Positions 13,631 to 49,130 of a DNA stretch of 64,000 bases are shown piece by piece. The notes below the pieces were generated by a model. The model saw nothing but the letters and a program-made list of their open reading frames with translations. It did no database searches and had not been told where the DNA came from. Where the stretch lies: the NCBI RefSeq assembly GCF_004923255.1, contig NZ_QYRT01000013.1, positions 1 through 64,000 of the forward strand, read 5' to 3'. A program made the position numbers and the translations under genes. Position 1 is the stretch's first letter; each line of letters begins with the position of its first letter. The DNA comes from Subtercola vilae (GTDB lineage Bacteria; Actinomycetota; Actinomycetes; Actinomycetales; Microbacteriaceae).

Positions 13631-13632
13631 TC

Positions 13633-15792: not shown

Positions 15793-15834
15793 CCGAAGCC
15801 CCCCAGAACAGAAGCCCGCAGAAAGGTCATTCAC

Positions 15835-16443
15835 ATGAGTACCTCACGAACGTTCGCCCGGCAGTACGGTGTCGCCGTACGAGCCATGATCGTCTTCACC
15901 CTCGTGCTCGGGGTTGCTTACACAGCCCTGATCACGGGTATCGGGCAGCTCGCGCTGCCCGCCCAGGCCAACGGATCGATTGTCCGCTCGGGCAACACCG
16001 CGGTGGGCTCGGCCCTGATCGGGCAGTCGTTCACCGACGCCGACGGCAACGCTCTGCCGGAGTGGTTCCAGTCTCGGCCGTCGGCCGCCGGCAACGGGTA
16101 CGACGCAGCCGCCTCGAGCGGCAGTAACTACGGCCCGGAGAATTCCGACCTGCTCGCCGCGATCGCCGACCGCCAGAGCGCCATCGCCGCGTCAGACGGT
16201 GTTTCGGTCGCGCAGATTCCGGCCGACGCCGTCACAGCCTCGGCCTCGGGGCTCGATCCGCACATCAGCCCCGAGTACGCTCAGATTCAGGTGGCACGCA
16301 TTGCTGCCGCTCGAAACCTGCCCGTAGACGAGGTGCAACAGTTGGTCAGCAACGCTACGACGTCACGCGATCTCGGGTTTCTGGGCGAGCCCACCGTCAA
16401 CGTGCTGCGCCTGAACATCGCGCTGGCCGGCCTGGCCGGTTGA
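15835..16443 (+). CDS. kdpC: KdpC subunit
   Basis: The product has 202 residues; AGAAAGG-like sequence precedes ATG 15835. One N-terminal helix (MIVFTLVLGVAYTALITGIGQLAL) is followed by the KdpC ectodomain: GSALIGQSF, WFQSRPSAAGNGYD, ASSGSNYGPENSDLL, VTASASGLDPHISPEYA and a C-terminal NVLRLNIAL. KdpC stabilises the complex and supports ATP use. Slightly longer than typical because of a ~7-residue N-terminal extension. Confidence 0.96.
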   Translation: MSTSRTFARQYGVAVRAMIVFTLVLGVAYTALITGIGQLALPAQANGSIVRSGNTAVGSALIGQSFTDADGNALPEWFQSRPSAAGNGYDAAASSGSNYGPENSDLLAAIADRQSAIAASDGVSVAQIPADAVTASASGLDPHISPEYAQIQVARIAAARNLPVDEVQQLVSNATTSRDLGFLGEPTVNVLRLNIALAGLAG

Positions 16444-16521
16444 GCACGGTGCGGCGGGCGGACATGCGGGCAGTGAAGCCGAGCGATGGCTCAGCGGCGA
16501 TGACACGATGGTGATCGCCCA

Positions 16522-27515: not shown

Positions 27516-27845
27516 ATGAAGAAGTTCCAGACAGCCGAGCCCGTCGACGAGACGGCCGAGGGCACTGTTCGCCAAGGCCTCACTCGCCGCCAGATCGCCG
27601 CAATCAGTGGCGCGGCCTATGCCGCTCCGGTGGGCACATACCCGGCCAAGACCATCACGTTCAGCCTCGGTCTCGCCATCGCCGCGGGCAGCTCGCAGAC
27701 CTTCGCGCTCTCGGTTCTGCTCGGTGCCGGTACCGTCGACGACGGCACTGTACTCAGCTGGGACACGAGCGTGAAGATTCTCGGCAGCTACCAAGTGGGC
27801 TCAGAGAAGACCTCTGATCTCTCGTGGGTCGGCACGAGCGCGTAA
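27516..27845 (+). CDS. Hypothetical protein
   Basis: The product has 109 residues from ATG 27516, with AGGAAA upstream. The first part is acidic (EPVDETAEG), then a TRRQIAAISGAAYAAPVG stretch that vaguely recalls a twin-arginine or anchor segment, followed by a Gly/Ser/Thr-rich beta-like half (FSLGLAIAAGSSQTFALSVLLGAG). The end SDLSWVGTSA is short. It resembles a small secreted or surface protein, but I recognise no family. It is divergent from the ATPase gene. Confidence 0.45.
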   Translation: MKKFQTAEPVDETAEGTVRQGLTRRQIAAISGAAYAAPVGTYPAKTITFSLGLAIAAGSSQTFALSVLLGAGTVDDGTVLSWDTSVKILGSYQVGSEKTSDLSWVGTSA

Positions 27846-27886
27846 CGACGACAACCACCACACGACGACAGCCACGCCACGCCATC

Positions 27887-28450
27887 ATGCTCACTTCGTT
27901 CGCCCTGACCCCCTCTGCCGAGACGGTGGCCGCTCTCTTCGGCGCCGCACGCTCCCGCGGCATGGGGTGGCGGCCCTCTTCGTGGTTCCAGCCGAAACGC
28001 AAGATACTGATCGTGCGCTCGTTCGGTGACGCCGGTGCTCGCGAGGTCATCACTGCGTCATGGGGCTTTGTGCCCGCGTGGCACGACGGCGAACTCGAAC
28101 CGCTGTCGCAGGTGGGCATTCGTCGGGTCGAGACGAACGGCCTGTTTCGGGATGCCCTGCGGCACGGGCGCTGTCTCATTCCGATGAGCGCGCCTGCCGT
28201 GCCCGGGGCTCTGCCTGACGCCCTCGGCTCGGCTCCCGTCGTGGCCGCGGCCGCGCTGGCGAGCATTCGTCTCGTCGACGGGCATGAGCGGGTGAGCGTC
28301 GCACTGCTCACCGCTGAGGCCGCCGCCGGAACGGGGGAGCGGCACGGGCTGCCGGCGCTGCTCGATACGGCCGGCCGTGCGGCCTGGCTCGACCCGCACG
28401 CGAGCACCGCGGGCGCGCTGGCCGGCCTGCGCGCCGCGGTGTCACACTGA
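27887..28450 (+). CDS. SRAP/YedK-like protein lacking the catalytic residues (copy 1)
   Basis: The product has 187 residues from ATG 27887. The fold signature of SOS-response-associated peptidases is clear: FALTPSAETVAALFGAA at the start, ASWGFVPAWHDGE, NGLFRDALRHGRCLIP, a VALLTAEA strand. Active SRAP proteins start MCGRF and use Cys2, an Asn in the NAR motif, Glu in FYEW and a late His. Here the start is MLTSF, the NAR region reads GIRRVET, and FYEW is missing (SAPAVPG). It should therefore not form the usual DNA crosslink. A paralogue lies at 38072-38752. Confidence 0.75.
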   Translation: MLTSFALTPSAETVAALFGAARSRGMGWRPSSWFQPKRKILIVRSFGDAGAREVITASWGFVPAWHDGELEPLSQVGIRRVETNGLFRDALRHGRCLIPMSAPAVPGALPDALGSAPVVAAAALASIRLVDGHERVSVALLTAEAAAGTGERHGLPALLDTAGRAAWLDPHASTAGALAGLRAAVSH

Positions 28451-28556: not shown

Positions 28557-29201
28557 ATGAGGTGCCGAACCAGGCGACGCAGCCGAGGGCGTGTTGCCGT
28601 CGGCGCCGCCATCCTCGCGGTGGTTACAGCCGCGACGCTCTCTGGATGCGCGGGAACCTGGTTCAAACCGGCCGCACCCGCGCTGCACATCTCGGTCGAT
28701 GACTGCCCGGTTCTGCCCGGCGCCGTGCGAGATGTGAGCAATGGCAAACCGCTGACGCGGTTGTTACTGCGCGAAGATGCACGGCCCACCGCTGCGCTGT
28801 TGTGCACCTACGAGGCGACGACGAATGGTGTCGATACGGCCGATACAGCCAGTGCAGTCGATGCGGCCGGTTCGACCGAGGGGCCTGCGGGCGTCGTGAC
28901 CCTGATGCAGGGTGTACACGTGCAGGAGACCGATGCGGTGGCGCTCGCCACGAGCATCCTGACGCTGTCGCTCGCGCCGCAGTTCGGTGTTGCGGGGTGC
29001 CCGATGGATGCGGGCGGAACATTTGCCCTGATCGTCTTTCACTACCCCGACGGCGCCGACACCGACCTGTATTACCACGACACGGGATGCGAGACGCTCG
29101 ACAACGGGAGTATCGGCGCCGGTCAGGTGGACAGCACCAGCTTCAACGACTTTCAGGTGAAATTCAGCGACCTGATCGGGCCCGTACCCGGCGCGTTCTG
29201 A
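28557..29201 (+). CDS. Putative lipoprotein
   Basis: The product has 214 residues from ATG 28557. Arg-rich start, hydrophobic helix and lipobox TLSGC predict export and lipidation at Cys ~26. The mature part has three further Cys (DDCPVL, LLCTYEA, VAGCPMD, TGCET) that may form disulfides and no domain I recognise. It ends nine bases before the convergent ROK gene. Confidence 0.75.
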   Translation: MRCRTRRRSRGRVAVGAAILAVVTAATLSGCAGTWFKPAAPALHISVDDCPVLPGAVRDVSNGKPLTRLLLREDARPTAALLCTYEATTNGVDTADTASAVDAAGSTEGPAGVVTLMQGVHVQETDAVALATSILTLSLAPQFGVAGCPMDAGGTFALIVFHYPDGADTDLYYHDTGCETLDNGSIGAGQVDSTSFNDFQVKFSDLIGPVPGAF

Positions 29202-29209
29202 AGCGGGGC

Positions 29210-30391
29210 TCAGATGCCCTGAAGCGAGAACATGCGGTCAAGAAAGACGGTGCCCGCACCCAGCAGGCCGCAGTCGTCGGGGCGGGTTGCCGTGGCGATG
29301 GTGAGCCTGTCGGTGGCCAGGGGCAGGCACTCGGCGTAGAGCATCGCACGCACGCCGGTGACGAAGACCTCCGACTGGCTGAGCACGCCGCCGAGCACCA
29401 GACGGTCTGGGTTGAAGAAGTTGACGATGGTAGCGAGCACGCCGCCCGTCATACTGCCGGCCTCCCGTAGAAGGCGGGTGGCCACCGGGTCGGCGTCGCG
29501 AGCAAGGGCGATCATGTCTTCGACGGTCGCCACCTCGCGCCCTGCCGCCTGCAGTTCGCGAACCAGCGCGTTGCCGCTGGCCAGGGCGTCGAGACAGCCC
29601 GTGCGACCGCACGAGCAGGCAACGGGCGGCGCGCCGGGCACCGAGACATGACTGATGTCGCCAGCCGCCCCGCGACTGCCGGTGAACAGCTCACCGCGGG
29701 CGATGATGCCGCAACCGATGCCCGAGCCTGCTTTGACAAAAACCTGGTCGGGTTCTCTGCGATCGCTCGCGGCATACTCGCCGAGGGCCATCAGATTCGC
29801 GTCGTTGTTGACCAGAACCGGTACCCCCGCGAGTGCTCCCAGAATCTGGGCCACGTCGATGCCGTTCCAGCCGGGCATGCGCGACGGAGCGATCACTCGG
29901 CCCGTCTCGGCCGAGACCGGCCCCGGCACACCCACCGACAGCCCTCTCAATAAGAGCTGCGAGTAGGCGGTGCTCTCGGCCAGCATTGTCTCGAATTCGG
30001 CCCAGACGCGCTGCAGCACGGGGTGCGGCCCGGCGGCGACGTCGAGTTCGATGTCGATGCGCGCCACGAGTTGCCCCGAGAGGTCGACGAGCCCGATGGA
30101 GGTTCGGTCGATTCCGAGGTCGATGCACCCCACGATGCCGCCGTCGTGGCGAAGCGCCAATCGGCGGGGTCGGCGGCCGCCTCGGGAGACGCCGTCACCC
30201 ACCTCTATAACGTGGCCGAGACCGATCAGTTCGTCGACCCGGGCCGTTACCGTCGACGGCGACAGGCCCGTGATCTTCGCCAAGTCGGCCTTCGAGTCGG
30301 CAAGGCCCGCACGAAGCGGGCCGAGGATCGCCAGGTTCTGGGCCGAGAACCGGGTGAACGAGGGGGGCACTCTAGAAGCCATTCGATCCAT
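29210..30391 (-). CDS. ROK-family transcriptional repressor
   Basis: The product has 393 residues if started at ATG 30391; ATG 30382 is equally possible. N-terminal winged helix (~10-70, LAKITGLSPSTVTARVDELIGLG) followed by a ROK sugar-binding domain with NNDANLMALGEYA, GIGCGIIARGELFTGSRGAAGDISH and zinc motif CSCGRTGCLDALASG. It is divergent from the ABC transporter gene at 30479, with palindromes between, so it very likely represses that operon until a sugar or sugar phosphate binds. Confidence 0.9.
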   Translation of the reverse strand: MDRMASRVPPSFTRFSAQNLAILGPLRAGLADSKADLAKITGLSPSTVTARVDELIGLGHVIEVGDGVSRGGRRPRRLALRHDGGIVGCIDLGIDRTSIGLVDLSGQLVARIDIELDVAAGPHPVLQRVWAEFETMLAESTAYSQLLLRGLSVGVPGPVSAETGRVIAPSRMPGWNGIDVAQILGALAGVPVLVNNDANLMALGEYAASDRREPDQVFVKAGSGIGCGIIARGELFTGSRGAAGDISHVSVPGAPPVACSCGRTGCLDALASGNALVRELQAAGREVATVEDMIALARDADPVATRLLREAGSMTGGVLATIVNFFNPDRLVLGGVLSQSEVFVTGVRAMLYAECLPLATDRLTIATATRPDDCGLLGAGTVFLDRMFSLQGI

Positions 30392-30414
30392 CCATTTGCC
30401 CGAGCTTACTCCAT

Positions 30415-30468
30415 AATCAAACAAAGAAACTCGAAATATGCGTGCAACAATAGATTGTTAGTTTGATT
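30415..30468. promoter_or_regulatory. Nested inverted repeats between the ROK gene and the ABC operon
   Basis: An AT-rich 88-base divergent gap holds AACAAT-AG-ATTGTT (30446-30459, perfect) and an outer pair AATCAAAC (30415-30422) with GTTTGATT (30461-30468). ROK regulators bind such AT-rich palindromes. Being in the only space between the two start codons, they are the natural operator candidates. Confidence 0.55.
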
Positions 30469-30478
30469 TACCAGCAAC

Positions 30479-31324
30479 ATGCTCATGGATGACCGTGGGT
30501 GGGTAGATCACGATGACAGTGGCGATGCGGCCAGGCCGCATCATGATTCGAAGGCGGCACCTGTGGCTCACGCACCGACCAGTACGGCACCGGCGATGGT
30601 TCAGATGACCGCCGTGCAGAAGCACTTCGGCGATCACCACGTTCTGAAAGACATCGACCTCACCATCGCACCGCGCGAGGTCGTCGTGGTTGTCGGGCCC
30701 TCTGGCTCTGGCAAGTCGACACTCTGCCGATGCATCAACAGGCTCGAGACCATCACCTCCGGCAGCATCTCGGTCGACGGTGTCGAGCTGCCCTCCGAGG
30801 GCAAGGCCCTCGCCCGGCTCCGCGCCGAGGTGGGAATGGTGTTCCAATCGTTCAACCTCTTCGCGCATCGCACCATTCTCGACAACGTGACGCTGGCGCC
30901 CATCAAGGTTCTGGGCCAGCCCCGCAAAGAGGCCCAGGCCGAGGGTCTTCAGCTGCTCGAGCGGGTGGGTATCGCCGACAAGTCCGACCAGTTTCCGGCC
31001 CAACTCTCGGGCGGCCAGCAGCAGCGCGCCGCCATTGCCCGCGCGCTCGCCATGAAGCCGAAGGTGATGCTCTTCGATGAGCCCACGAGCGCCCTCGACC
31101 CCGAGATGGTGAGCGAAGTGCTCGACGTCATGACGTCGCTGGCGAGTGAGGGGATGACCATGGTGGTGGTCACCCACGAAATGGGTTTCGCCCGCCGCGC
31201 AGCCGACCGGGTCATCTTCATGGATGACGGTCGCATCGTCGAGCAGAACACCCCCGCCGACTTCTTCGACCGGGCGTCGAGCCCCCGCGCCCAGGCCTTC
31301 CTGTCAAAAATCCTGCCGCACTGA
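30479..31324 (+). CDS. Amino-acid-type ABC transporter ATPase (GluA/GlnQ-like)
   Basis: The product has 281 residues from ATG 30479; ATG 30596 would remove a polar N-terminal extension of 39 residues and is possible. Walker [11 protein letters not shown]-loop VFQSFNLF, signature [15 protein letters not shown], Walker [15 protein letters not shown] and H-loop [13 protein letters not shown] are those of polar-amino-acid ATPases. First gene of the operon 30479-38056. Substrate uncertain; context suggests an amino-sugar conjugate rather than glutamate. Confidence 0.9.
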
Positions 31325-31414
31325 CTCCTGAACCCAGGCCCCTGACCCCAGGCCCCACAACAGCTTCACCCTGCACCGAAAAACGAAACGCGAAACGAAA
31401 GAAAGGTTCCACCC

Positions 31415-32368
31415 GTGCCCAGCACACGAAAAACCCTCACGCGAGGCATCCCCCTGCTCGCCATCACCGTCACCGCCGCCCTGGCCTTCAGCGCGTGCTC
31501 GTCAGACAGCTCAGCTGTGCCCACCTCCAACCCGACGTCGAGCGCTTCGAACGCACTGTCGTCGGTGTACTCGAACGCGGCCGTGGCCTCGGCTGCAGAC
31601 CTGATTCCCGATTCGACAATGGCGAAGATCAAGGCGCGCGGCAAACTGATCGTCGCCGAAGCGCTCGATGCACCGCTGCTCTCGCAGCAAGACCCCTCGA
31701 ACCCCGACAATGTCGAGGGTTTTGATGCCGACCTCGCCAAGCTGCTGGCCATCTACATTCTGGGCACACCGAGCGTCGAGATCATTCCGCCCGCCTCTGA
31801 GACGCGCGAGGCGCTGCTGCAGAACGGTACCGTCGACGTGGTCTTCAACACCTACACGATCACCACCGAGCGTGACGCGCAGGTCGACTTCGCGGGCCCG
31901 TACCTGCAGTCGGGGCTGGCCGTCGCGGTGAAGAGCGACAACACGAGCATCCAGAGCGTCAGTGATCTCGGTGGCAAGACGGTCATCGTCGGTGCGAACA
32001 CGCCCGCCGTGACCGCTGTTCCCGAGCAGCAGCCGACCGCCAAGGTCGTCAGCTTCGCCACCGACCCCGAGGCCGTGCTGGCTCTCACCCAGGGCCGTGG
32101 TGACGCCTACGTTCAAGACTTCACGCTGCTCGCCAGCGATGCTGCCTCGAACAAGGCCATCAAGGTCGTGGGCCAGCCGTTCACGACCGAGTCGTACGGC
32201 ATCGGTCTGAAGAACAACGACACGCAGTTCAAGTCGTTCATCAACGCGTGGTTGACCAAAATCGAAGCCAGCGGTGACTGGGCGAAGGTGTGGAACGCCA
32301 CGCTCGGCTCAGCCGTGACGTCGTCGACGCCCACCCCGCCCGCCATCGGGTCGGTTCCCGGTTCCTGA
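31415..32368 (+). CDS. ABC transporter substrate-binding lipoprotein (GluB-like)
   Basis: The product has 317 residues from GTG 31415 (AAAGG upstream). Signal with lipobox AFSAC, Ser/Thr-rich linker, then a family 3 solute-binding domain: IKARGKLIVAEALDAPLL, EGFDADLAKLLA, TVDVVFNTYTITTERDAQVDFAGPY, DLGGKTVIVGANTPA, YGIGLKNNDTQFKSFIN. It captures the substrate outside the cell for the two permeases downstream. The 77-base gap to the permease includes a weak imperfect hairpin (GGGC/GCCC). Confidence 0.9.
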   Translation: MPSTRKTLTRGIPLLAITVTAALAFSACSSDSSAVPTSNPTSSASNALSSVYSNAAVASAADLIPDSTMAKIKARGKLIVAEALDAPLLSQQDPSNPDNVEGFDADLAKLLAIYILGTPSVEIIPPASETREALLQNGTVDVVFNTYTITTERDAQVDFAGPYLQSGLAVAVKSDNTSIQSVSDLGGKTVIVGANTPAVTAVPEQQPTAKVVSFATDPEAVLALTQGRGDAYVQDFTLLASDAASNKAIKVVGQPFTTESYGIGLKNNDTQFKSFINAWLTKIEASGDWAKVWNATLGSAVTSSTPTPPAIGSVPGS

Positions 32369-32445
32369 TCAGCACCACCTGATTCCGAAGGCAGGGCGAG
32401 AGCCCGGGCCTGACCCACGATGAGATCGACCAGCAGAGGAACGCG

Positions 32446-33090
32446 ATGAACATCTTCGCAGACAGCGCCGGCCCGCTGCTGTCGGCACTCGGCACCACCA
32501 TCATGATGGCGGTGATCGCCGGTGTCGCAGCGATCGTGCTCGGAACGATCGTGACGGCCGCGCGCATCAGCCCCATTCCGGTGCTGCGCGGCATCGCGTT
32601 CGTCTACGTGCAGTTCTTCGTGAACGTTCCCCTGCTGGTTCTTCTCATCCTCGCCGTCTTCGCTCTGCCCGACGCCGGGCTGCTGCTGCCGCTCACGCCG
32701 ACGGCCATCATCGTTCTGGCCCTCTACGAAGCGGCCTATGTCGCCGAGGCGATCCGCAGTGGTGTGAACACCGTGGGCACGGGCCAGATCGAGGCGAGCC
32801 GGGCGCTCGGGTTCACCCTCGTGCAGACGCTGCGGCTCGTGGTGGTGCCGCAGGCGCTCCGCGCGGCGGTGCAGCCGATCGGCAACGTGATGATCGCCCT
32901 CACGATGAATACGGCTCTCGCCGCGGCCATTGGTGTGGTCGAGCTCACCTCAGAGGCGAACAAACTCAACCTCGTTCAGGCTCAGCCCATTCTCATCTTC
33001 AGCGTCGCGGGCCTCGTCTACATGGCGCTCGCGCTGATCATCGGGCTGAGCGCCGGCAGAATCGAAAAGAGAGTGGCGATCAAACGATGA
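32446..33090 (+). CDS. ABC transporter permease (GluC-like)
   Basis: The product has 214 residues; AGAGGA precedes ATG 32446. Five helices with the EAA loop ALYEAAYVAEAIRSGVNTVGTGQIEASRALG, typical of HisMQ-type permeases. Overlaps the next permease by four bases, forming a heterodimeric channel with it. Confidence 0.93.
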   Translation: MNIFADSAGPLLSALGTTIMMAVIAGVAAIVLGTIVTAARISPIPVLRGIAFVYVQFFVNVPLLVLLILAVFALPDAGLLLPLTPTAIIVLALYEAAYVAEAIRSGVNTVGTGQIEASRALGFTLVQTLRLVVVPQALRAAVQPIGNVMIALTMNTALAAAIGVVELTSEANKLNLVQAQPILIFSVAGLVYMALALIIGLSAGRIEKRVAIKR

Positions 33091-33971
33091 GTGCATCTTC
33101 TTCGCACCAGCCTGCGGTCTCGCTGTACGACGAACCCGGGCCTCGCGCACAACGTGCGATCCGGCTGTGGTCGGTTGTCGCCGTCATTGTGGTCATCGCC
33201 CTGATCGTGGCCGCTGCGGTGCAGTTCGGTTCGCACGGCCAACTCGACGCCGAGCGCTGGACGCCGTTTCTGAGCGCCGGAATCTGGCAGTACCTCTTCG
33301 TGGGGCTGTGGGGCACCATTCAGGCCGCCGCCCTCGTGGCGGTGCTGGGCGGGGCCTTCGGGCTGGTTCTGGCACTCGGCCGGCTGAGTCGCAACCCGGT
33401 CATCCACTGGGTCAGCACCGCCTACATCGAGATCGCCCGCACGATTCCCGTGCTGCTGCTGATCTATCTGATGCTGTTCGGGCTGCCGCAGCTGGGTCTG
33501 AACTTCCCGCTGCTGTGGAAGCTGGTGATCCCGCTCACGGTGGCGAATGCGGCGGCGTTCGCCGAGATCATTCGGGCGGGCATCCTCGGGCTTCCCGCCG
33601 GCCAGTCAGAGGCGGCGGCCAGCCTCGGCCTCTCTCGCGGGCAAGCCATGCGACTCGTCGTTCTGCCGCAGGCCCTGCGGTTCGTGACGCCCTCGCTCGT
33701 CACCCAGCTCGTGAGCCTCGTCAAAGACACCTCGCTCGGCTATATCGTGGCGTTCACCGAACTGCTCTACCGCGGGCAGGTGCTCGCGGCATACAACCAC
33801 TTTCTGATTCCCACCTTCGTTGTCGTGACGGTCATCTACCTGGTTTTCAACGGCGCGCTGTCGACCCTGGCGTCGCAACTGCGTCGCCGACCGGGCAAGC
33901 GCAGCCTCGCAGAACCGAGTACCAGTGCGCCTGTGGTCGGCGTCCCCGTCACCGACTCGTCGATCCGCTAG
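33087..33971 (+). CDS. ABC transporter permease (GluD-like)
   Basis: The product has 294 residues, ATGA overlap with the preceding gene. A polar N-terminal extension precedes the helices; the EAA loop is NAAAFAEIIRAGILGLPAGQSEAAASLGLSRG-like, followed by LVSLVKDTSLGYIVAFTELL. The C-terminal tail is longer and Ser/Pro-rich. Its TAG stop is part of the AGGAG used by the next gene. Confidence 0.93.
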   Translation: MSASSSHQPAVSLYDEPGPRAQRAIRLWSVVAVIVVIALIVAAAVQFGSHGQLDAERWTPFLSAGIWQYLFVGLWGTIQAAALVAVLGGAFGLVLALGRLSRNPVIHWVSTAYIEIARTIPVLLLIYLMLFGLPQLGLNFPLLWKLVIPLTVANAAAFAEIIRAGILGLPAGQSEAAASLGLSRGQAMRLVVLPQALRFVTPSLVTQLVSLVKDTSLGYIVAFTELLYRGQVLAAYNHFLIPTFVVVTVIYLVFNGALSTLASQLRRRPGKRSLAEPSTSAPVVGVPVTDSSIR

Positions 33972-33980
33972 GAGCACCAC

Positions 33981-35723
33981 ATCACTACCCCCACCGATGC
34001 ACCGCGACCGACCGTCGTGGAAATCTGCATCGACGACCTCGCCGGTGCCCTCGTGGCTGAACGCGCCGGCGCCCAGCGCGTGGAGCTCTGCGCCGACCTC
34101 GTCGAGGGCGGCACCACGCCCAGCCTCGGGTTGCTGCGAGCAGTGGCTCGCGAAACATCGACCATCGGTATTCAGGTCATGGTGCGCCCGCGGGGCGGCG
34201 ACTTCGTGTATTCGGCGGCCGAGCTGGCCGTGATGTGTCTCGATCTCGAGCAGATCAGGGCGGTCTCCGAAACTATTCCGGGCCGTATCGGTGTCGTGCT
34301 CGGCGCGCTGACGACCGGTCACCGGGTCGACGTCGCCGCGATGCGGCAGCTGATCGCGGCGGCCGGCGAGCTGCCCGTCACCTTTCACAAGGCGTTCGAC
34401 GAGACGGGCGACCTGGCCGCGAGCTCCGACGTGTTGGCGGGGCTGGGGGTGACGGCCATCCTGAGCTCAGGGGGCGCGCCGACCGCCGAGAAGGGTGCTG
34501 CCGCCCTCAAACTGCTGATCGAACGTTCGGCGTCAGGCCCCCGGATGCTCGTGGGTGGCGGCGTTCGACCGCACAACGTTCGGGCGCTCGTCGCTGCCAC
34601 CGGTGCAGGCGAGGTGCACCTGCGGGCCCAAGTGCCCTCTGCCCGCGGCGACGGAACGCTCGAGACCGACCGCGCCCTCGTCGAGCAACTGATCGCGGCA
34701 GTGGGTCCTGACGCAGCGCCCGACATCGAGGCGGTGCTCGCGCTCGATATCGGCGGCACCAACCTCAAGGGCGCCGTGGTCGACTCGCTCGGCCGCGTCG
34801 TGTTGGCAGAGACGCTGGATGCGGGTGCGTCGGGCGACGAGTCTCTCGAGCTCGTGCGTACGCTGCTGCTGAGGCTCAAGCAGCACGCTTCGGAGGCGGG
34901 CTGGAACGTCATCGGCGCCGGCGTCGTGACGCCCGGCATCATCGACCCGGCCACCGGCACTGTGCGGTACGCCTCGACGCTGGAGTGGACCAATGTAGCG
35001 CTCGGCCCTGTGCTCAGCGCCGACCTCGGTATTCCCGTGGCCATCGGCCACGATGTGCGCTCGGCAGGGCTTGCCGAGGCGCTCTTCGGTGCCTCAGCCG
35101 GGGTCTCGAACTCGGTGCTCGTCGCCATCGGTACCGGGGTTGCTGCTGCCATTCTCAGTACCGACCTTCCCGTGGTGGGGCACCTGACGTCTGCCGGTGA
35201 ACTCGGTCACATTCCGGCGCTGCCGCACGGCGAAGACTGCACTTGCGGGCAGCGCGGCTGCCTCGAGGTCTACATGTCGGGTGCGGGGCTCGCGCGGCGG
35301 TACCAAGCGCTCGGCGGGCTCGACAGCCTCACCGCGGCTGAGATCGTCGAGCGGCAGGGCACCGATGCGGTTGCCCGACGGGTGTGGGGCGACGGCGTCG
35401 AGGCGCTCGCACTGGGTCTGAAGACAGTGACCCTTCTTCTAGACCCTGCCGTCATCGTGCTCACCGGCGGAGTGTCGCGTGCCGGCGCCGCTTTGCTCGA
35501 CCCCGTTCGCGAGCAGCTCGCCGCCGCGCTGGCCTGGCGCTCGGCACCGCCCGTCGAGACCTCGGTTCTCGGCACCTCTGGTAGTCGTATCGGCGCCTCA
35601 GTACTGGCCTTCCGCGCCGCTGGGCGACCTGACACGCCCGCCGAGTGGATGCTCGACAACCTGCTCGGCCACCCCACAGAGTCGCTCGTTCCCGCCCTGC
35701 CCGCTGCCTCTCGAAAGAACTGA
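33981..35723 (+). CDS. CutC-ROK kinase fusion, apparent ATC start
   Basis: A perfect AGGAG lies six bases before ATC 33981, giving TTPTDAPRPTVVEICIDD as the N-terminus (580 residues). The first ATG-like start in frame is GTG 34017, which has no ribosome site and would cut into the first strand. Residues ~10-250 are a CutC TIM barrel: EICIDDLAGALVAERAGAQRVELCADL, GGTTPSLGLL, MVRPRGGDFVYS, FHKAFDE, GVTAILSSGGAPTA, GGGVRPHNV. From ~255 to the end is a ROK kinase: LALDIGGTNLKGAV, GHDVRSAGLAEALFGA, GELGHIPAL and CTCGQRGCLEV. Such kinases phosphorylate amino sugars or glucose. The fusion and gene order link CutC to amino-sugar use. Confidence 0.85.
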   Translation: MTTPTDAPRPTVVEICIDDLAGALVAERAGAQRVELCADLVEGGTTPSLGLLRAVARETSTIGIQVMVRPRGGDFVYSAAELAVMCLDLEQIRAVSETIPGRIGVVLGALTTGHRVDVAAMRQLIAAAGELPVTFHKAFDETGDLAASSDVLAGLGVTAILSSGGAPTAEKGAAALKLLIERSASGPRMLVGGGVRPHNVRALVAATGAGEVHLRAQVPSARGDGTLETDRALVEQLIAAVGPDAAPDIEAVLALDIGGTNLKGAVVDSLGRVVLAETLDAGASGDESLELVRTLLLRLKQHASEAGWNVIGAGVVTPGIIDPATGTVRYASTLEWTNVALGPVLSADLGIPVAIGHDVRSAGLAEALFGASAGVSNSVLVAIGTGVAAAILSTDLPVVGHLTSAGELGHIPALPHGEDCTCGQRGCLEVYMSGAGLARRYQALGGLDSLTAAEIVERQGTDAVARRVWGDGVEALALGLKTVTLLLDPAVIVLTGGVSRAGAALLDPVREQLAAALAWRSAPPVETSVLGTSGSRIGASVLAFRAAGRPDTPAEWMLDNLLGHPTESLVPALPAASRKN

Positions 35724-35727
35724 TCCC

Positions 35728-36507
35728 ATGGCTGAAATCATCATCGTCGACACCCCCGCTGACGCGGGCGCGGTGGCCGGAGCGGCGATTGCGCTACTCG
35801 TCGACCGCCGACCCGACGCGGTTCTCGGGGTCGCGACCGGTTCGACGCCGCTGCCGGTCTACTCCGACCTTCGGGAGCGGTTGGCCGGGCGCGACGTGTC
35901 ACAGGTGCGTGCCTTTGCGCTCGATGAGTACGTGGGAATCGCCCGCGACCACCCCGAGAGCTACCACAGCATCATCGACGCCCAGGTGACGGTACCCCTC
36001 GGCCTCACGCGCGGGCTGGTGCAGGTGCCCAACGGCCAGGCCGACGATCTCGAACAGGCTGCGCTCGAGTACGACGCGGCCATCCGGGCTGCCGGCGGCA
36101 TAGACCTGCAGCTGCTCGGTATCGGCACCGACGGACACATCGGTTTCAACGAACCCGGCTCGTCGTTCGCCTCGCGCACCCGGGTCAAAACGCTCACGCC
36201 GCAGACCCGCAGCGACAACGCCCGATTCTTCGCCTCGGTCGACGAGGTGCCCCGGCACGCGCTGACCCAGGGCCTCGGCACTATCCTCGAGGCGCGCCAT
36301 CTGGTGCTGCTGGCGTTCGGCGAATCCAAGGCAGAGGCCGTGGCGCGGGCGGTCGAGGGGCCGATGAGTGCGCGGGTGCCGGCCACGGCCATCCATCTGC
36401 ATCCGCACTGCACGGTGATCGTCGATCGCGCCGCCGCGAGCCAGCTCGTCGACACCGCGTTCTACGAATACGTCTTCGCGAACAAGCCCGCCTGGCAGGG
36501 TATCTGA
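35728..36507 (+). CDS. nagB: Glucosamine-6-phosphate deaminase
   Basis: The product has 259 residues from ATG 35728. Family motifs: GVATGSTPLPVYSDL, FALDEYVGIARDHPESYHSI, LGIGTDGHIGFNEPGSSF (catalytic Asp/His region), RVKTLTPQTRSDNARFF, and ESKAEAVARAVEGP. It converts glucosamine 6-phosphate to fructose 6-phosphate and ammonia. Placed right after the CutC-ROK kinase, it likely receives that kinase's product. No nagA-type deacetylase is in the operon. Confidence 0.93.
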   Translation: MAEIIIVDTPADAGAVAGAAIALLVDRRPDAVLGVATGSTPLPVYSDLRERLAGRDVSQVRAFALDEYVGIARDHPESYHSIIDAQVTVPLGLTRGLVQVPNGQADDLEQAALEYDAAIRAAGGIDLQLLGIGTDGHIGFNEPGSSFASRTRVKTLTPQTRSDNARFFASVDEVPRHALTQGLGTILEARHLVLLAFGESKAEAVARAVEGPMSARVPATAIHLHPHCTVIVDRAAASQLVDTAFYEYVFANKPAWQGI

Positions 36508-36508
36508 C

Positions 36509-38056
36509 ATGTCGAGTGCGAACCTGCCGAGCCCTGCGTTGCCGAGCCCTGCGTTGCCGAGCCCTGCGTTGCCGAGCGCCGCGCTGCCGAACGTCGCAAT
36601 AGCGGGCCTCGCCATCGAGTCGAGCACGTTCTCGCCGGCGCGAACCGATGCCGCCGCCTTCCGGCCGCGGCGGGGTGCCGAGGTGCTCGAGGAGTACCCC
36701 TTCCTCGCGCCAGGCACCCCCCTTCGCCGGGCCGCCAACTGGCTTCCGGCCCTCACCGGCAGGGCTCTGCCCGGCGGCATGGTCACCGCGGCTGCGTTCG
36801 ATGAGCTCGCCGGCGAGATCGTCGAACGTCTCTCGGTCATGCCTTCGCTCGACGGCCTCTACTTCGACATTCACGGGGCGATGAGCGTCGAAGGCCTCGA
36901 TGACCCCGAAGCCGTTCTGCTCGAGCGCATTCGCGCGGTGATCGGCCCCGCCGCGGTGGTCTCTGCCTCGATGGATCTGCATGGCAATGTGTCGCGGCGG
37001 CTCGTTGAGCTCGTAGACCTGATCACCTGCGACCGCACCGCCCCCCATGTCGACACCGAAGAGACGCGCGAGCGAGCGGTCGGCAATCTCGTTCGGCAGC
37101 TCGGGTCGGGTGGCCCGAAGCCGTTCAAGGCGTGGGTTCCCCTGCCGCTGTTGCTGCCGGGGGAGAAGACTTCGACGCGCCTCGACCCGGCGAAGAGTGT
37201 CTACGCCCTGGTGCCAGAGGTCGAAGCGACCGACGGTGTGCTCGATGCGGCCGTGTGGGTGGGCTATGCCTGGGCCGACGAGCCGCGCAACCGGGCGGCG
37301 GTGGTCGTCACCGGCAGAGATGCCGCAGCCGTGGCGGCTGGAGCGGAACGCCTGGCCGCCGCCTTCTGGAAGGCCAGGGCCGACTTCGAATTCGTCGCAG
37401 CCACCGACACGTTCGCAGGGGCGCTCGACACGGCGCTCGCGAGCGATCGTCGCCCGTTCTTGATCAGCGATTCCGGTGACAACCCCACCGCGGGCGGCGC
37501 CGGCGACGTGTCGTGGGGGCTGCGGGAATTGCTCGCACGGCCTGAATTCAGGTCGGCTGACGCACCGAGTGTCATCTACGCCTCCCTTCCGGCCCCCGAT
37601 GCCGTAGCTGAGGCCGTGCGGGCAGGGGTGGGCGCTACGGTCACCGTCTCTGCGGGAGCCGAGGTCGACCGCCGCCACGCGGGGCCGGTCACCTTCGAGG
37701 GGGTTGTGCACAGCATCCGGCACGGCGACCCGAATGCGGTCACCGAGGTGGTCATTCGAACCGGCAGCGTGTTCGTCATACTGACCGGGCTGCGCAAGCC
37801 ATATCACCTCGAACGTGACTTCACCGAGCTGAACCTCGACCCGCGTTCGAGTGCCATCGTCATCGTCAAGATCGGCTATCTCGAACCGCAGCTGTTCGAT
37901 TTGTCAGAGGGGTGGGTGCTCGCCCTCACCCCGGGCGGCGTCGACCAAGACATCGCACGACTCGGTCACCGCCGGGTCGAGCGGCCCATCTACCCGTTCG
38001 ATGCCGACATGCCCGAGCCTGATCTCGGCGCGCGGCTCATCGGTGAGGCAGAGTGA
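36509..38056 (+). CDS. MlrC/M81-family metallopeptidase
   Basis: The product has 515 residues, one base after nagB. The MlrC features: VAIAGLAIESSTFSPARTD, LDGLYFDIHGAMSVEG, VVSASMDLHGNVSRRLVELVD, APHVDTEETRERA, and SDSGDNPTAGGAGDVSW in the C-terminal half, with His/Asp zinc ligands. The name member cleaves linearised microcystin; other members have unknown substrates. An N-terminal PSPAL repeat, coded by a 15-base tandem repeat, precedes the domain. The gene suggests that the imported compound has a peptide or amide bond. Confidence 0.9.
   Translation: MSSANLPSPALPSPALPSPALPSAALPNVAIAGLAIESSTFSPARTDAAAFRPRRGAEVLEEYPFLAPGTPLRRAANWLPALTGRALPGGMVTAAAFDELAGEIVERLSVMPSLDGLYFDIHGAMSVEGLDDPEAVLLERIRAVIGPAAVVSASMDLHGNVSRRLVELVDLITCDRTAPHVDTEETRERAVGNLVRQLGSGGPKPFKAWVPLPLLLPGEKTSTRLDPAKSVYALVPEVEATDGVLDAAVWVGYAWADEPRNRAAVVVTGRDAAAVAAGAERLAAAFWKARADFEFVAATDTFAGALDTALASDRRPFLISDSGDNPTAGGAGDVSWGLRELLARPEFRSADAPSVIYASLPAPDAVAEAVRAGVGATVTVSAGAEVDRRHAGPVTFEGVVHSIRHGDPNAVTEVVIRTGSVFVILTGLRKPYHLERDFTELNLDPRSSAIVIVKIGYLEPQLFDLSEGWVLALTPGGVDQDIARLGHRRVERPIYPFDADMPEPDLGARLIGEAE
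36526..36585. repeat. 15-bp tandem repeat, four units, at the start of the MlrC-like gene
   Basis: Three identical units GCCGAGCCCTGCGTT (36526-36570) and a fourth changed one. They encode PSPAL repeats that precede the conserved domain. In frame and likely variable in number; the residues are probably a disordered leader. Confidence 0.9.
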
Positions 38057-38071
38057 GCCGCCCTGCTGCTC

Positions 38072-38752
38072 TCAGCTGCCGAGCAGTCGCACCAGACGGG
38101 CACTGTCGCGCGGAACGACGGCATTGATTCCGTCGCCGATGCGGTAGCTCAGCAGCCCTTCGGCCAATGCAGCCGAGCGGGCCTGAAACTCGGCCAAGGG
38201 CAGGTCGACCGCGGTATCGACGGCTCCGTTCAACCAGAGCCGGGCATCGGCGGGGGTGAGAACAGAGGGCCACTCGCGCGACTGCGCCCCCGGGCGTTCG
38301 CCCGTGAGCAGTGCCACCGTCAGAATGGCGCGCCCATTCACGACGCGGGTCGTGAAGACGCCCATTGCCGAGAGAATCGGTTCGGTTCCGTGAACGTAGC
38401 GCGGTTCGGCGACTGCGCCCGAGCGCTGCCACGCGTAGAAACCGTTCAGCGGCACGAGACAGCGCTGGCGGGCGAGCGCGGCCGCGAACAGCCCGTTGTT
38501 GCCCACGCGGTCGACGCCGATGGCATACACCGGCTTCAGCTCGCCGGTATTCCACGCGGGCGAAAGCCCCCAGCTCGCCGTCTCGAGAGTGAGCGTTCGA
38601 AGCCCGTGCTCGAGGCGCTGCCGAACAACGACGATTTTTCTGTTGGCGGCGAAATGATACGACGGCCCCCACCCAGAAGTACGGCTGGTCGCGGCGCCGT
38701 AGAACTCGCTGATCTCTGCGGCGGTGTGGGCGAGTGCGAATGCGGTGCGCAC
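38072..38752 (-). CDS. SRAP/YedK-like protein lacking the catalytic residues (copy 2)
   Basis: The product has 226 residues. SRAP features are easy to see: FALAHTAAEISEFYGAA, ASWGLSPAWNTGE, NGLFAAALARQRCLVPLNGFYAW, VALLTGERPG, WPSVLTPADARLWL. It starts MRTAF instead of MCGRF (Cys2 lost), the NAR Asn region reads GVDRVGN, FYEW has become FYAW (Glu lost) and the late His is not visible. Copy 1 at 27887 has similar losses and shares W-PS..F...RKI..VR and PAW..GEL with it, so the two are paralogues of a distinct non-catalytic group. Confidence 0.8.
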   Translation of the reverse strand: MRTAFALAHTAAEISEFYGAATSRTSGWGPSYHFAANRKIVVVRQRLEHGLRTLTLETASWGLSPAWNTGELKPVYAIGVDRVGNNGLFAAALARQRCLVPLNGFYAWQRSGAVAEPRYVHGTEPILSAMGVFTTRVVNGRAILTVALLTGERPGAQSREWPSVLTPADARLWLNGAVDTAVDLPLAEFQARSAALAEGLLSYRIGDGINAVVPRDSARLVRLLGS

Positions 38753-45518: not shown

Positions 45519-47258
45519 TCAGCTGCTCACTTCGGGCGCAGCCGCGAGGAGGGCTCGGGTGTAGTCGGCCGTCGGAGCTGAGAAGACCGTCTCGGTGGGG
45601 CCACTTTCGAGAACGCGCCCGTCTTTCATGACGAGAACATCGTCGCTGGCGTGCCGAACCACGCCGAGGTCGTGGGTGATGAAGAGGTAGCTGAGCCCGA
45701 GGGTCGACTGCAGGTCATCGAGCAGGTCGAGAATCTGGGCCTGCACCGAGACGTCGAGACTCGAGACCGGCTCGTCGCACACGATGATCGCCGGGCGCGC
45801 GGCAATGGCGCGGGCGATGGCCACCCGCTGCTGCTGGCCGCCCGACAAGAACCTCGGCCGACGGGTGGCCGTGGCTTGGGGCAGGTGCACCGCGTCGAGC
45901 AGGCCCGCCAGGTCGGTGCGCCACGGGTTGTCACCACCGGCCGCTCTGCTGGCTGGCGTGCGGGTTGCTGTCTCGACAGCAGCCGCTTCGCCCACACCCG
46001 CACCGACCCTGAGGGCGTCGCCCAGAATCTGACCCGCCGTCAGCCTCGGGTCGAACGAACTCAGCGCGTCTTGGTAGATCGCTCCGATCAACGGGCGTCG
46101 GCTGCGGCGCTGCCCCTCGGGGGAGGTGCTCCACTCTTCGCCGAAGAGTCGAACCTCTCCGGCATCCGGATGCTCCAGAGCGAGTACCAGCCTCGCCAGC
46201 GTGGTTTTGCCCGACCCCGACTCGCCGACGATGCCGAGGGTCTCGCCGCGGCCCAGCGTGAAGCTGACGCTGTCGACGGCCTGCCGTTCGCCGAACCGAC
46301 GGCTGAGGCCTCTGGCTTCGAGCACGATCTCGCGCGGTGGCGCTGTGGGTTCGGCTACGGGCGGGGTGTAGACGGGCAGAGCGACGGGCAGAGCGACGGG
46401 CAGGGCAGAGGGGGAGAGGCGGCGGCCGCGAGGCTGGCTGGTGGGCACCGCCGCCACCAGGCGGCGGGTGTACGGGTGCTGTGGGGCATCCAGAACCCGG
46501 CGGGTGGGGCCGAACTCGACGAGTGAACCGGCTTGCATGACAGCGACGCGCGAGGCGAGCCGGCTCACGACGGCAAGGTCGTGGCTGATGAGCAGAATGG
46601 CCGTGCCCTCGCTCTGCAGATGGTGAAGCAGGTCGAGGATCCCGGCCTGTACGGTGCTGTCGAGCGCGGTCGTCGGCTCGTCGGCGATGAGCAGTCGGGG
46701 GCCCAGGGCGATGGCGGAGGCGATCAGCGCGCGCTGGCGAAGGCCGCCCGAGAGCTCGTAGGGGCGCTGCCCCGCCCGCAGTTCGGGCTCGGGCATACCG
46801 ACAGCCGTGAGCAGCTCGATGACGCGGGCCGCACGTTCGGCGGCTGACGCACGCGTGTGCAGCCGCAGGGTGTCGGCGATCTCACGGCCGACCGGCCGCA
46901 GCGGATCGAGCCCCACGAGCGCGGCCTGCGGAATGTAGCCGATGCCCCCCGCGCTGCCGCGGAGCGCTCGCCAGCGGCTTCGCGAGAGACCGCGCAGATC
47001 GGTGTCACCGAACCGCAGCATGTCGGCGTCGACGCAGGCACCGCTCGCGAGCCCGAGCAGCGCCCGCGCCGTGACGCTCTTGCCCGAACCCGATTCCCCC
47101 ACCAGCCCTACGCACTCGCCCGGCTCGATGTCGAACGAGATGCCGGCGACGGCCGGTGTCTCCTGCCGGGCGAACCGCACGGTGAGAGCGCCCACCTCGA
47201 CCAGCGGTCGCACCATCTGCGGGCTCACGACCGGTGAGCCCGCCACCCGCGGGCTCAC
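45519..47258 (-). CDS. Peptide/nickel ABC transporter, fused double ATPase (DppD-DppF type)
   Basis: The product has 579 residues from GTG 47258, whose GTGA overlaps the permease stop. Two complete ATPase units in one chain: Walker A GESGSGKSV with LSGGLRQRALIASAI and ADEPTTALD; then GESGSGKTT with [15 protein letters not shown] and CDEPVSSLD. Between them a Pro/Ala linker repeats LPVA. The first half ends with PQHPYTRRLVAAVP, the usual oligopeptide ATPase end. It powers import through DppB/DppC. Confidence 0.92.
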   Translation of the reverse strand: MSPRVAGSPVVSPQMVRPLVEVGALTVRFARQETPAVAGISFDIEPGECVGLVGESGSGKSVTARALLGLASGACVDADMLRFGDTDLRGLSRSRWRALRGSAGGIGYIPQAALVGLDPLRPVGREIADTLRLHTRASAAERAARVIELLTAVGMPEPELRAGQRPYELSGGLRQRALIASAIALGPRLLIADEPTTALDSTVQAGILDLLHHLQSEGTAILLISHDLAVVSRLASRVAVMQAGSLVEFGPTRRVLDAPQHPYTRRLVAAVPTSQPRGRRLSPSALPVALPVALPVYTPPVAEPTAPPREIVLEARGLSRRFGERQAVDSVSFTLGRGETLGIVGESGSGKTTLARLVLALEHPDAGEVRLFGEEWSTSPEGQRRSRRPLIGAIYQDALSSFDPRLTAGQILGDALRVGAGVGEAAAVETATRTPASRAAGGDNPWRTDLAGLLDAVHLPQATATRRPRFLSGGQQQRVAIARAIAARPAIIVCDEPVSSLDVSVQAQILDLLDDLQSTLGLSYLFITHDLGVVRHASDDVLVMKDGRVLESGPTETVFSAPTADYTRALLAAAPEVSS

Positions 47259-48151
47259 GATGAGCGCTTCCGCTGCTGCAGGGCACGCCCGAGCAGCGTC
47301 GTCGCGGCGGCGCTCAGCACGATGAAGAGACCGGGAAAGAATGTCATCCACCAGAACGACGAGATGTAGGTGCGGCCCGCTGACAGCATGGCGCCCCACT
47401 CGGGTGCGGGAGGCACCGCGCCAAGCCCCAGATAGCTGAGCGAGGCAGCCCACACGATCGACTGCCCGATGCCCAGGGTTGCGATGACGAACAGTGCGCC
47501 GGCGACGTTCGGCAACAGGTGGCGCACCAGACGTGACGCGGGGCCGTGCCCGAGCACGGTAGCGGCCTCGATGTAGGGCGCTGCCCTCACCTGCCGCACC
47601 TGGCTGCGGATGAGCCGGGCATATCCCGGTGCTGTCGAGAGCCCCACCGCGATGGTCGACGTGACCACCCCCGGCCCGTAGATCACAATGAAGAGCAACG
47701 CCAGCAGCAGCCCAGGAAAAGCGAACAGCACTTCGAGCAGCCGGGTCGTCGAGAAGTCGAGCCAGCGCGGCCCGAGGCCCGCCAGCAGCCCGAACACCAA
47801 CCCCAGTCCGATACCGATGGCCGTGGCAGTGAGCCCGATGGTCACGGATGCCCGGGCACCGTGTATCACCCGTGTGAAGATGTCGCGCCCCGATTCGTCG
47901 GTGCCGAAGAGGTGGTTGGCCGATGGCGGCTGAAAGCTCTGCAGCGGGTTGATGCCGAGCGGATCACCCGGAGCGATCAGCCCCGGCGCCACCGCCGCCA
48001 CGACCAGCAGCAGAATGACGGCGCCGGCGAGCACTTCGGCCACGCTCACACCGCGGGCGAGACGGTGGCCGCGACGATGCCTCCGTTGGCTGCTGCGCTG
48101 CCGGCCGCGCTGGGCGGCAGGCGGCTCTGTCAGGCTCGGCGAGATGATCAT
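47255..48151 (-). CDS. Peptide/nickel ABC permease (DppC type)
   Basis: The product has 298 residues. Basic N-terminal leader, then a helix followed by GDPLGINPLQSFQPPSANHLFGTDESGRDIFTRVIHGARASVTIGL, the DppC signature, EAATVLGHGP as EAA loop, and helices to the end. ATG overlaps the DppB stop by four bases. Confidence 0.93.
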   Translation of the reverse strand: MIISPSLTEPPAAQRGRQRSSQRRHRRGHRLARGVSVAEVLAGAVILLLVVAAVAPGLIAPGDPLGINPLQSFQPPSANHLFGTDESGRDIFTRVIHGARASVTIGLTATAIGIGLGLVFGLLAGLGPRWLDFSTTRLLEVLFAFPGLLLALLFIVIYGPGVVTSTIAVGLSTAPGYARLIRSQVRQVRAAPYIEAATVLGHGPASRLVRHLLPNVAGALFVIATLGIGQSIVWAASLSYLGLGAVPPAPEWGAMLSAGRTYISSFWWMTFFPGLFIVLSAAATTLLGRALQQRKRSS

Positions 48152-49104
48152 CGCGACACCGCCCGAGCGGCCAGCCGGGGGTCGATGAGTCGCTCGGCAA
48201 GGTCGGTCGCGGTCGTGACGAGCATGTAGCCGAGCGCCACGACGATGACGACACCCACCACGAGGGGAACATCGCGCCCCTGTACCGCCTGCAGCAGGCT
48301 GCGACCAAGGCCCGGCCGGGCGAAGATGGTCTCGACCACCACCGCGCCGCTGAGAAGCGAACCGAACGCCCAGCCGGCCAGGCCGATCGCAGGAATCGCG
48401 GAGTGCCGCAGCGCGTGCCTCCAGAAGACGCCGTTCTCGTTCTCGCCACGGGCGCGGGCCGAGAGCGCGAACGGCGACGACATCGCATCGAGCAGCGCCT
48501 CGCGCATCACCTGGCCGAGAAACCCGGCGAGGGGAACGGCGAGAGTCAACGCCGGCAGAATGAGCCCGCTGGGGCCTGGCACGCTCACCGGGGGCAGCCA
48601 GCCGAGCGCTGTGCTGAACAGCACGATGCCGAGAATGGCCAGCCAGAAGTGTGGCACGGCCGCGGCCACCACCTCGAGAAACGAGGCAACGGCCGAGGCG
48701 GCACGGCCGCCCCGCACAGACCAGGCGGCCACTGCAAGAGCGATGACGACAGCCACGCTCAGTGCAACCACGGCCAGGCCGAGCGTGGGTGGCAGTGTGT
48801 CGGCGATCACGCTGGCCACGCTCTGGTGCAGGGCGTACGAGCGACCGAGGTCGAGGCTGGCGAGTCGCCCGAGAAAACGGAGGTACTGCAGAAGAAGCGG
48901 CTGGTCGAGGCCGTACTCGGCCCGGGCATCCGCCAGTGCGTCGGCACTCGCCTCTGAACCGGGACCCCCGACGATGGCTTCGGCGGGGTCGCCCGGGATG
49001 AGCCGGATAGCGAAGAACGTGACCGTCGACACCGCCCAGAGCACAAAGACCACGCCGCCCAGGCGCAGCAGCAGCCAGCGCAGCAGGGGAGCGGCGGGTG
49101 TCAT
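48148..49104 (-). CDS. Peptide/nickel ABC permease (DppB type)
   Basis: The product has 318 residues from ATG 49104. The DppB start LLLRLGGVVFVLWAVSTVTFFAIRLIPGDPAEAI is followed by YGLDQPLLLQYLRFLGRL, DLGRSY, the late loop RARGENENGVFWRHALRHSAIPAIG, and VVVETIFARPGLGRSLLQAV. First permease of the operon. Confidence 0.93.
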   Translation of the reverse strand: MTPAAPLLRWLLLRLGGVVFVLWAVSTVTFFAIRLIPGDPAEAIVGGPGSEASADALADARAEYGLDQPLLLQYLRFLGRLASLDLGRSYALHQSVASVIADTLPPTLGLAVVALSVAVVIALAVAAWSVRGGRAASAVASFLEVVAAAVPHFWLAILGIVLFSTALGWLPPVSVPGPSGLILPALTLAVPLAGFLGQVMREALLDAMSSPFALSARARGENENGVFWRHALRHSAIPAIGLAGWAFGSLLSGAVVVETIFARPGLGRSLLQAVQGRDVPLVVGVVIVVALGYMLVTTATDLAERLIDPRLAARAVSR

Positions 49105-49130
49105 GCTCCGACCGTAGCGCGGCAGAGCGC

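Follow-up and report, generated by a model that had tools for sequence, protein, structure and literature searches.

The window analysed here is a 64,000-nucleotide stretch of Subtercola vilae DNA (contig NZ_QYRT01000013.1; contig C9 of the 4.04 Mb, 103-contig genome G000), and the element in question is the gene set at positions 29210–38056. Profile matches confirm the parts that a first-pass annotation had read there: a ROK-family regulator, an amino-acid-type ATP-binding cassette (ABC) importer, a fusion of CutC with a ROK domain, NagB and an M81/MlrC protein (Table 1). The permease genes overlap by 4 bases, and gaps of 45, 1 and 1 bases precede CutC–ROK, NagB and MlrC, respectively. It is proposed that this operon imports and degrades an N-glycosyl-asparagine, most likely N-acetylglucosaminyl-asparagine (GlcNAc-Asn), the stump of digested N-glycoproteins. 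The probability of this reading is put at about two in three.

Table 1. Features of the operon region: window coordinates, strand and supporting matches (aa, amino acids; ORF, open reading frame).
Feature	Position	Strand	Evidence and remarks
ROK-family transcriptional regulator	29210..30424	-	PF00480 1.9e-48, 165.9 bits; start codon uncertain, most relatives ~390-400 aa
Candidate operator palindrome AACAAT-N2-ATTGTT	30446..30459	.	divergent intergenic region
ABC importer ATPase, GlnQ-like	30596..31324	+	PF00005 1.1e-36; 242 aa; longest ORF from 30479
Extracellular substrate-binding protein, family 3 (SBP_bac_3)	31415..32368	+	PF00497 3.5e-21
ABC importer permease 1 (BPD_transp_1)	32446..33090	+	PF00528 3.7e-17; TIGR01726 above cut-off
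ABC importer permease 2 (BPD_transp_1)	33087..33971	+	PF00528 3.7e-17; TIGR01726 above cut-off
CutC-ROK fusion	34017..35723	+	PF03932 9.1e-56 (residues 1-204); PF00480 4.3e-54 (residues 241-531)
Glucosamine-6-phosphate deaminase NagB	35725..36507	+	NF001684 363.9 bits (cut-off 326); TIGR00502 239 bits (cut-off 236.9)
M81-family MlrC-like metallohydrolase, proposed pathway amidase	36509..38056	+	PF07364 4.5e-102, PF07171 3.3e-54; start possibly 36569

A family search covering 199 genomes found CutC and ROK fused or adjacent in at least 14 of them, including the window's own, among the matches listed. The surroundings of the 13 other loci (L044–L056) were labelled by BLAST to the window proteins. 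Conservation of gene order, the check suggested by the first-pass annotation, was borne out: regulator, ATPase, binding protein and both permeases stand in the same order in 13 of 13 loci. The three same-genus loci L044, L045 and L046, which stand for every other same-genus genome retrieved in the search, share the window's order, the fused CutC–ROK, NagB and MlrC at 66–94% protein identity (74% for MlrC in the three genomes). As the order is identical in all three, the gene set is not a chance assembly. Across the 14 genomes, which span nine genera, the operon order is kept, as it is at further Microbispora and Leifsonia loci. CutC and ROK are fused in 10 of the 13 related loci and separate neighbours in 3; among the ten loci outside the genus (L047–L056, eight genera), the corresponding numbers are 7 and 3.

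These ten loci carry, in every case, a gene of 329–367 residues between permease 2 and CutC. It encodes an Asparaginase_II protein (PF06089) in the four loci scanned with Pfam, and the other nine copies are 65–97% identical to that of L047. In genome-wide searches, each of the four window-genus genomes has a single M81 protein (PF07364), and the ten other operon genomes have none. The window genome also encodes an asparaginase II on contig C55, a paralogue only 37–40% identical to the operon type. Of the ten asparaginase-operon genomes, all have the operon copy, and all but G143 have in addition a C55-type match (52–65%) at another place in the genome; the four window-genus genomes have the C55 type only and lack the operon type. 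Operon-type asparaginase II is thus absent exactly where M81 is present among the 14 genomes, and replacement of the former by MlrC is therefore inferred.

Gene order in the asparaginase operons, amidase–CutC–ROK–NagB(–NagA), tracks the proposed catabolic steps. NagB adjoins CutC–ROK in four of these ten operons and lies on the regulator side in one. The operon of L048 (genome G185) includes NagA (TIGR00221 above cut-off), the sole NagA match in that genome. NagA is present in 14 of 14 operon genomes, and the nagA model places the window genome's copy on contig C33; an amidohydrolase at C1:157396, considered as the NagA of a canonical nag cluster, was rejected on that ground. A further NagB paralogue lies on contig C38 (L063, 7095–12317), beside a gene whose product weakly matches neuraminidase (35 bits, cut-off 900) and a gene for a Gfo/Idh-type dehydrogenase; this region is perhaps another amino-sugar locus.

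The importer has the features of the PAAT family: an SBP_bac_3 binding protein, BPD_transp_1 permeases with the HEQRo three-transmembrane signature (TIGR01726) and a GlnQ-like ATPase, whose best NCBIfam match is GlnQ itself (326 bits, under the cut-off of 379). The ATPase start at 30596 is favoured by its relatives, 9 of 13 of which are called at 241–242 residues. Among the matches listed (25 of 190 for the ATPase), none reached an equivalog cut-off specific to one amino acid, and the family models are compatible with a plain amino-acid importer. In the binding protein, Arg153 and Asp235 do not vary across 18 sequences, the window's among them, and align with an Arg and an Asp of solved glutamate/glutamine-binding proteins. 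In those proteins this pair holds the α-carboxyl and α-amino groups of the ligand, as in Escherichia coli GlnH. Its retention fits a ligand with a free amino-acid end and an altered side chain.

Both M81 domain models (PF07364 and PF07171) match the window MlrC. Residues E37, H122, D156, H158 and H180, which we take to be catalytic or metal-binding, are invariant in 13 proteins including the window's, and in the solved microcystinase 7ylq. The window protein thus shares both domains and five residues with microcystinase MlrC, and the Adda–Glu bond, like the Asn side-chain amide, is the amide of a 3-amino acid. In contrast to microcystinase, however, it is set in a sugar operon and falls far short of the microcystinase exception model NF041767 (108.7 bits, cut-off 999).

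A search of 396 genomes of the phylum with the window MlrC (our own cut-off, E ≤ 1e-60) matched five, and in four (the window, L150, L152 and L153) CutC is adjacent or in the operon. A second layout recurs among actinobacterial MlrC clusters, in L150, L151, L152, L154 (with L057) and L083: genes for MlrC and a ROK regulator stand with an importer (binding protein, two permeases and a double ATPase) and a ROK kinase, and CutC is present in all except L151. The importer of this layout looks like the Opp/Dpp type, as judged by Pfam in L057 (SBP_bac_5) and elsewhere by gene sizes and ATPase similarity. In L057, an aspartate dehydrogenase gene (PF01958) precedes CutC; aspartate would be the expected second product of the pathway. 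MlrC adjoins CutC in L153 as well, where the Opp/Dpp-like importer is missing. A second importer in the window itself is of the oligopeptide type (45519–50765, minus strand), with a family-5 binding protein and a fused double ATPase by Pfam and two genes between them.

CutC was followed beyond this family by a GTDB scan with an alignment of 15 CutC proteins, the set analysed being the best 80 of 590 confirmed stretches. By their record titles, these loci belong to Actinomycetota, Bacteroidota, Pseudomonadota, Acidobacteriota, Spirochaetota, Verrucomicrobiota and others. At high-GC loci, where the simple ORF caller performs poorly, genes were predicted anew with a codon score. Hidden Markov models (HMMs) of three amidase families gave 18 matches no farther than 10 kb from CutC, of which 15 lie 253 bases or less from it. 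Adjacent copies make up 8 of 8 glycosylasparaginase-type matches (Pontibacter, Fibrella, two Hymenobacter, a Flavobacteriaceae metagenome-assembled genome (MAG), two Lysobacter and a Luteibacter MAG) and 3 of 3 asparaginase II matches (an actinomycete MAG, Microbispora and a Leifsonia MAG). For MlrC, the proportion is 4 of 7 (Phycicoccus, Spirochaetales, Bacteroidales and Sphaerochaeta), the other three lying at 3–9 kb. The adjacent amidase is on the opposite strand in 3 of the 15 (L081, L119 and L104). Distances were calculated with open frames and a nominal length for CutC. Some of the sequences behind the HMMs came from these loci themselves (AGA 5, MlrC 4), an overlap that bears on detection and not on distance. 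A binomial estimate for 15 of 18 adjacent is 9e-12, an order of magnitude at best, as it uses a rough 0.12 per match and ignores kinship between loci.

A Pfam-wide scan of CutC neighbours placed Asparaginase_2, GH20 and MlrC at the top, followed by asparaginase II, fucosidase, ROK and unrelated families with three members each. The S49 peptidase, outer-membrane barrel and transglutaminase core families, also with three members each, have no place in the proposed pathway. The scan omitted 12 of 85 same-strand neighbours (10 short, one of 212 and one of 1252 residues) and added the opposite-strand neighbours of L081, L119 and L104, which were chosen for being amidases. Without these three additions, the counts among 73 neighbours are Asparaginase_2 6, GH20 5, and MlrC, asparaginase II, fucosidase and ROK 3 each. 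PF01112 occurs genome-wide in 19 of 50 genomes examined out of the 80; the seven copies located at CutC by coordinates begin their match at profile positions 25–33, and isoaspartyl-peptidase-like copies at positions 1–3. A cluster of neighbour proteins from eight loci (cluster 3) consisted of antisense frames over CutC and was discarded. In ten Bacteroidales loci (L087, L095, L118, L128, L131, L132, L134, L135, L141 and L143), a related protein of about 890 residues is encoded near CutC, the one in L087 with a transglutaminase core.

Plasmids were sampled separately, from 67 records with CutC; eight were picked among 40 listed, leaving out enterobacteria, and the HMMs were run on all eight, six of which came without listed genes. 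An amidase adjoins CutC in four regions (L161, L162, L163 and L167) and lies about 1 kb away in L166, and ROK adjoins CutC in L164; the HMM search found neither amidase nor ROK beside CutC in L165 and L168. The Hymenobacter tibetensis plasmid region L163 is annotated with a consecutive series of GH92, ROK, N(4)-(β-N-acetylglucosaminyl)-L-asparaginase, CutC, a LacI regulator and NagB.

CutC occurs in bacteria and humans, as solved structures attest, and the CutC domain of the window has both the PF03932 match and the CutC fold. Fourteen residues are invariant, all in the strands and β–α loops of the barrel. Solved folds close to CutC outside its own family include TrpF and HisA, enzymes that act on N-glycosylamines, and the conserved Cys4 of CutC appears at the position of the TrpF catalytic Cys7. 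It is tentatively suggested, as possible rather than probable, that CutC is at root a TIM-barrel enzyme that processes glycosylamines, and not a copper protein. It might convert 1-amino-GlcNAc, perhaps as the phosphorylated sugar, to GlcNAc and ammonia, and so complete N-glycosyl-asparagine breakdown once one of three unrelated amidases (glycosylasparaginase, asparaginase II or M81/MlrC) has acted, which would make MlrC a new kind of glycosyl-asparaginase. A precedent for the architecture is provided by NanE–NanK fusions, in which a small TIM-barrel amino-sugar enzyme is joined to a ROK kinase; the window protein is alike in this, with CutC in place of the NanE epimerase. NanE is absent from the 50 structure rows listed for the CutC fold, an absence that is no evidence. 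The copper homeostasis annotation of CutC rests on thin grounds, and the copper phenotype of E. coli cutC was reportedly assigned later to the small RNA MicL, by Guo et al. in 2014. In the literature, CutC is called poorly characterized (PMC6769254) and MicL is placed at cutC (PMC8216713), the only part of that account confirmed. Two scanned CutC neighbours are YecM proteins, by position presumably those of the enterobacterial loci L078 and L102, neither of which has an amidase neighbour; CutC of the E. coli type may differ or rely on unlinked genes.

The proposed pathway would run as follows. The family-3 binding protein and the two permeases are predicted to take up GlcNAc-Asn by its free α-amino-acid end. 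MlrC would then cleave the β-aspartyl amide to aspartate and 1-amino-GlcNAc, a step that the exchange of genes suggests is performed by asparaginase II in related genera. In the least certain step, the CutC domain would convert the 1-amino sugar to free GlcNAc and ammonia, which would otherwise happen non-enzymatically. From family knowledge, the fused ROK domain would phosphorylate GlcNAc to GlcNAc-6-phosphate. NagA, which is encoded elsewhere in the genome and within the operon in G185, and NagB would carry this to fructose-6-phosphate; both genes are observed, and the reactions are those expected of their families. The divergent ROK regulator would likewise sense the sugar or sugar phosphate and act as a repressor.

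Counterparts of the regulator occupy the equivalent place in the 13 related loci at 49–81% identity (the gene calls of L052 and L056 cover it partly), and its winged helix-turn-helix match, HTH_24, scores 21.8 bits, just under the cut-off of 21.9. The candidate operator is kept in L044, L045 and L046 with one spacer base altered, and a similar palindrome of the form TAACAAT...TTGTTA is found in L047, L049, L050 and L051, from three other genera. No such operator-like palindrome was found in the intergenic regions of the six loci L048 and L052–L056. A consensus scan of 29000–38300 found no sigma-70-like promoter and no plus-strand terminator-like site, with nothing above shuffled sequences. SRAP-family (SOS response associated peptidase) genes flank the operon in opposite orientations (27824–28450, plus strand; 38072–38752, minus strand), and kdp potassium uptake genes, encoding KdpA, a P-type ATPase subunit and the KdpD sensor kinase, lie at 11957–19029 (plus strand).

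As described in PMC6960285, the alf-2 cluster of Lactobacillus casei BL23 serves the catabolism of fucosyl-GlcNAc-Asn. As in the proposal for the window operon, the whole glycoamino acid is imported, the Asn amide is hydrolysed inside the cell, a ROK kinase phosphorylates the sugar and the cluster has its own repressor; in the window operon, the PF00480 domain of the CutC–ROK fusion supplies the ROK-family sugar kinase. The parts differ, however, in that alf-2 is described there with an MFS permease, an α-fucosidase, the Ntn (N-terminal nucleophile) glycosylasparaginase AsnA2, an aspartate decarboxylase and a GntR repressor, and with neither CutC nor MlrC. PF01112, the Ntn glycosylasparaginase family, is absent among the window operon proteins, and the operon is therefore classed as working like alf-2 and not as a member of it. 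The same paper states that 1-amino-GlcNAc decays without an enzyme, and also calls it not metabolizable (PMC6960285). In the Xanthomonas nix N-glycan cluster, CutC (XAC3091) is reported as part of the cluster and an asparaginase (XAC3092) as lying in its neighbourhood; nix differs in having glycosidases and TonB receptors for whole N-glycans, and CutC is read there as copper metabolism (PMC6718126, PMC5700972). When the open-licence literature was searched for a connection between CutC and glycosylasparaginase, amino sugars or the breakdown of N-glycans, these two Xanthomonas reports were the only ones found. The first-pass statement that no pathway with this set had been described thus needs qualification: L. 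casei alf-2 is described as degrading GlcNAc-Asn (PMC6960285), but a description of the present set of parts, with CutC, was not found in the open-licence literature. Since glycosyl-asparagine catabolism is already known in L. casei with other parts, the operon would represent a new variant of such a pathway.

A number of observations weigh against the N-glycosyl-asparagine pathway or the role assigned to CutC in it. A GH92 mannosidase was not found in the window genome and occurs in only 5 of the 14 operon genomes, so a local source of N-glycans is not evident. The window genome retains the C55 asparaginase II, which could perform the amide cleavage, and MlrC is the last gene of the window operon, so that gene order there departs from the order of the steps. 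In 5 of the 10 asparaginase-II operons no NagB was seen nearby, and CutC is absent within the 20 kb examined around MlrC of L151 (G376). Among the 80 CutC loci, 65 lack an adjacent amidase of the three HMM families; at distances up to 10 kb, ROK was matched at only 9 and the NagB profile at none. The tie may thus hold for only part of the CutC family. In Z score, the likeness of CutC to TrpF and HisA does not stand out, many other TIM barrels reaching the same value. The alf-2 cluster, as described in PMC6960285, lacks CutC.

Other explanations draw on the same evidence. The importer might carry glycosylated dipeptides or glycosyl-asparagine, with MlrC a peptidase that trims a peptide bond and the general asparaginase II encoded elsewhere removing the sugar. 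The M81 family is known for peptide cleavage, with MlrC cutting Adda–Glu (PMC12474180); several MlrC clusters seem to carry Opp/Dpp-type importers, and the C55 gene provides another asparaginase II. The window importer, however, matches in its amino-acid type that of the asparaginase-II operons. Each of the 14 genomes has either M81 or the operon asparaginase and never both, and the C55-type asparaginase II is found with either arrangement. This explanation is considered unlikely. Recycling of muropeptides or peptidoglycan fragments, in which an imported amino sugar with a peptide would be split by MlrC, is very improbable. The first-pass annotation had considered a muropeptide-like or glycoconjugate substrate fitting, and NagB and ROK kinases do also serve cell-wall sugars by family knowledge, but the MurNAc-6-phosphate etherase model (TIGR00274) exceeds its cut-off in only 4 of 14 operon genomes and in 0 of 4 of the window's genus. 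Moreover, the partner enzymes in relatives are asparaginases, of families that act on the Asn side-chain amide, and in the binding protein the Arg and Asp that hold a free α-amino acid in its family are retained.

Use of Amadori compounds (fructosyl-amino acids), as in the frl and soc systems, would share with these an amino-acid-type ABC importer and a sugar kinase; yet no SIS-type deglycase is found among the operon proteins, NagB passes the glucosamine-6-phosphate deaminase equivalog cut-off and asparaginase partners are unsuited to an Amadori linkage, which leaves this explanation barely credible. Every part alone has an ordinary annotation, and the locus could be a loose cluster with no single substrate, in which glutamine- or asparagine-type nitrogen uptake, a copper protein and a sugar operon are simply neighbours. 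Against such a cluster, which has little probability, stand the order kept in 14 genomes and nine genera and at the Microbispora and Leifsonia loci, the fusion of CutC and ROK in most of them and the related neighbours of CutC in other phyla.

The idea that the substrate is an amino sugar in amide linkage to an amino acid, already present in the first-pass annotation, is well supported by the asparaginase that takes the place of MlrC in relatives and by the neighbours of CutC in other phyla, and is narrowed here to N-glycosyl-asparagine. The main novelty of the N-glycosyl-asparagine pathway is an enzymatic role for CutC that can be tested with a simple compound, GlcNAc-Asn. If correct, this role would explain how cells handle 1-amino-GlcNAc near neutral pH. 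The 'microcystinases' of the MlrC family would likewise gain a natural role, in recycling the last piece of N-glycoproteins.

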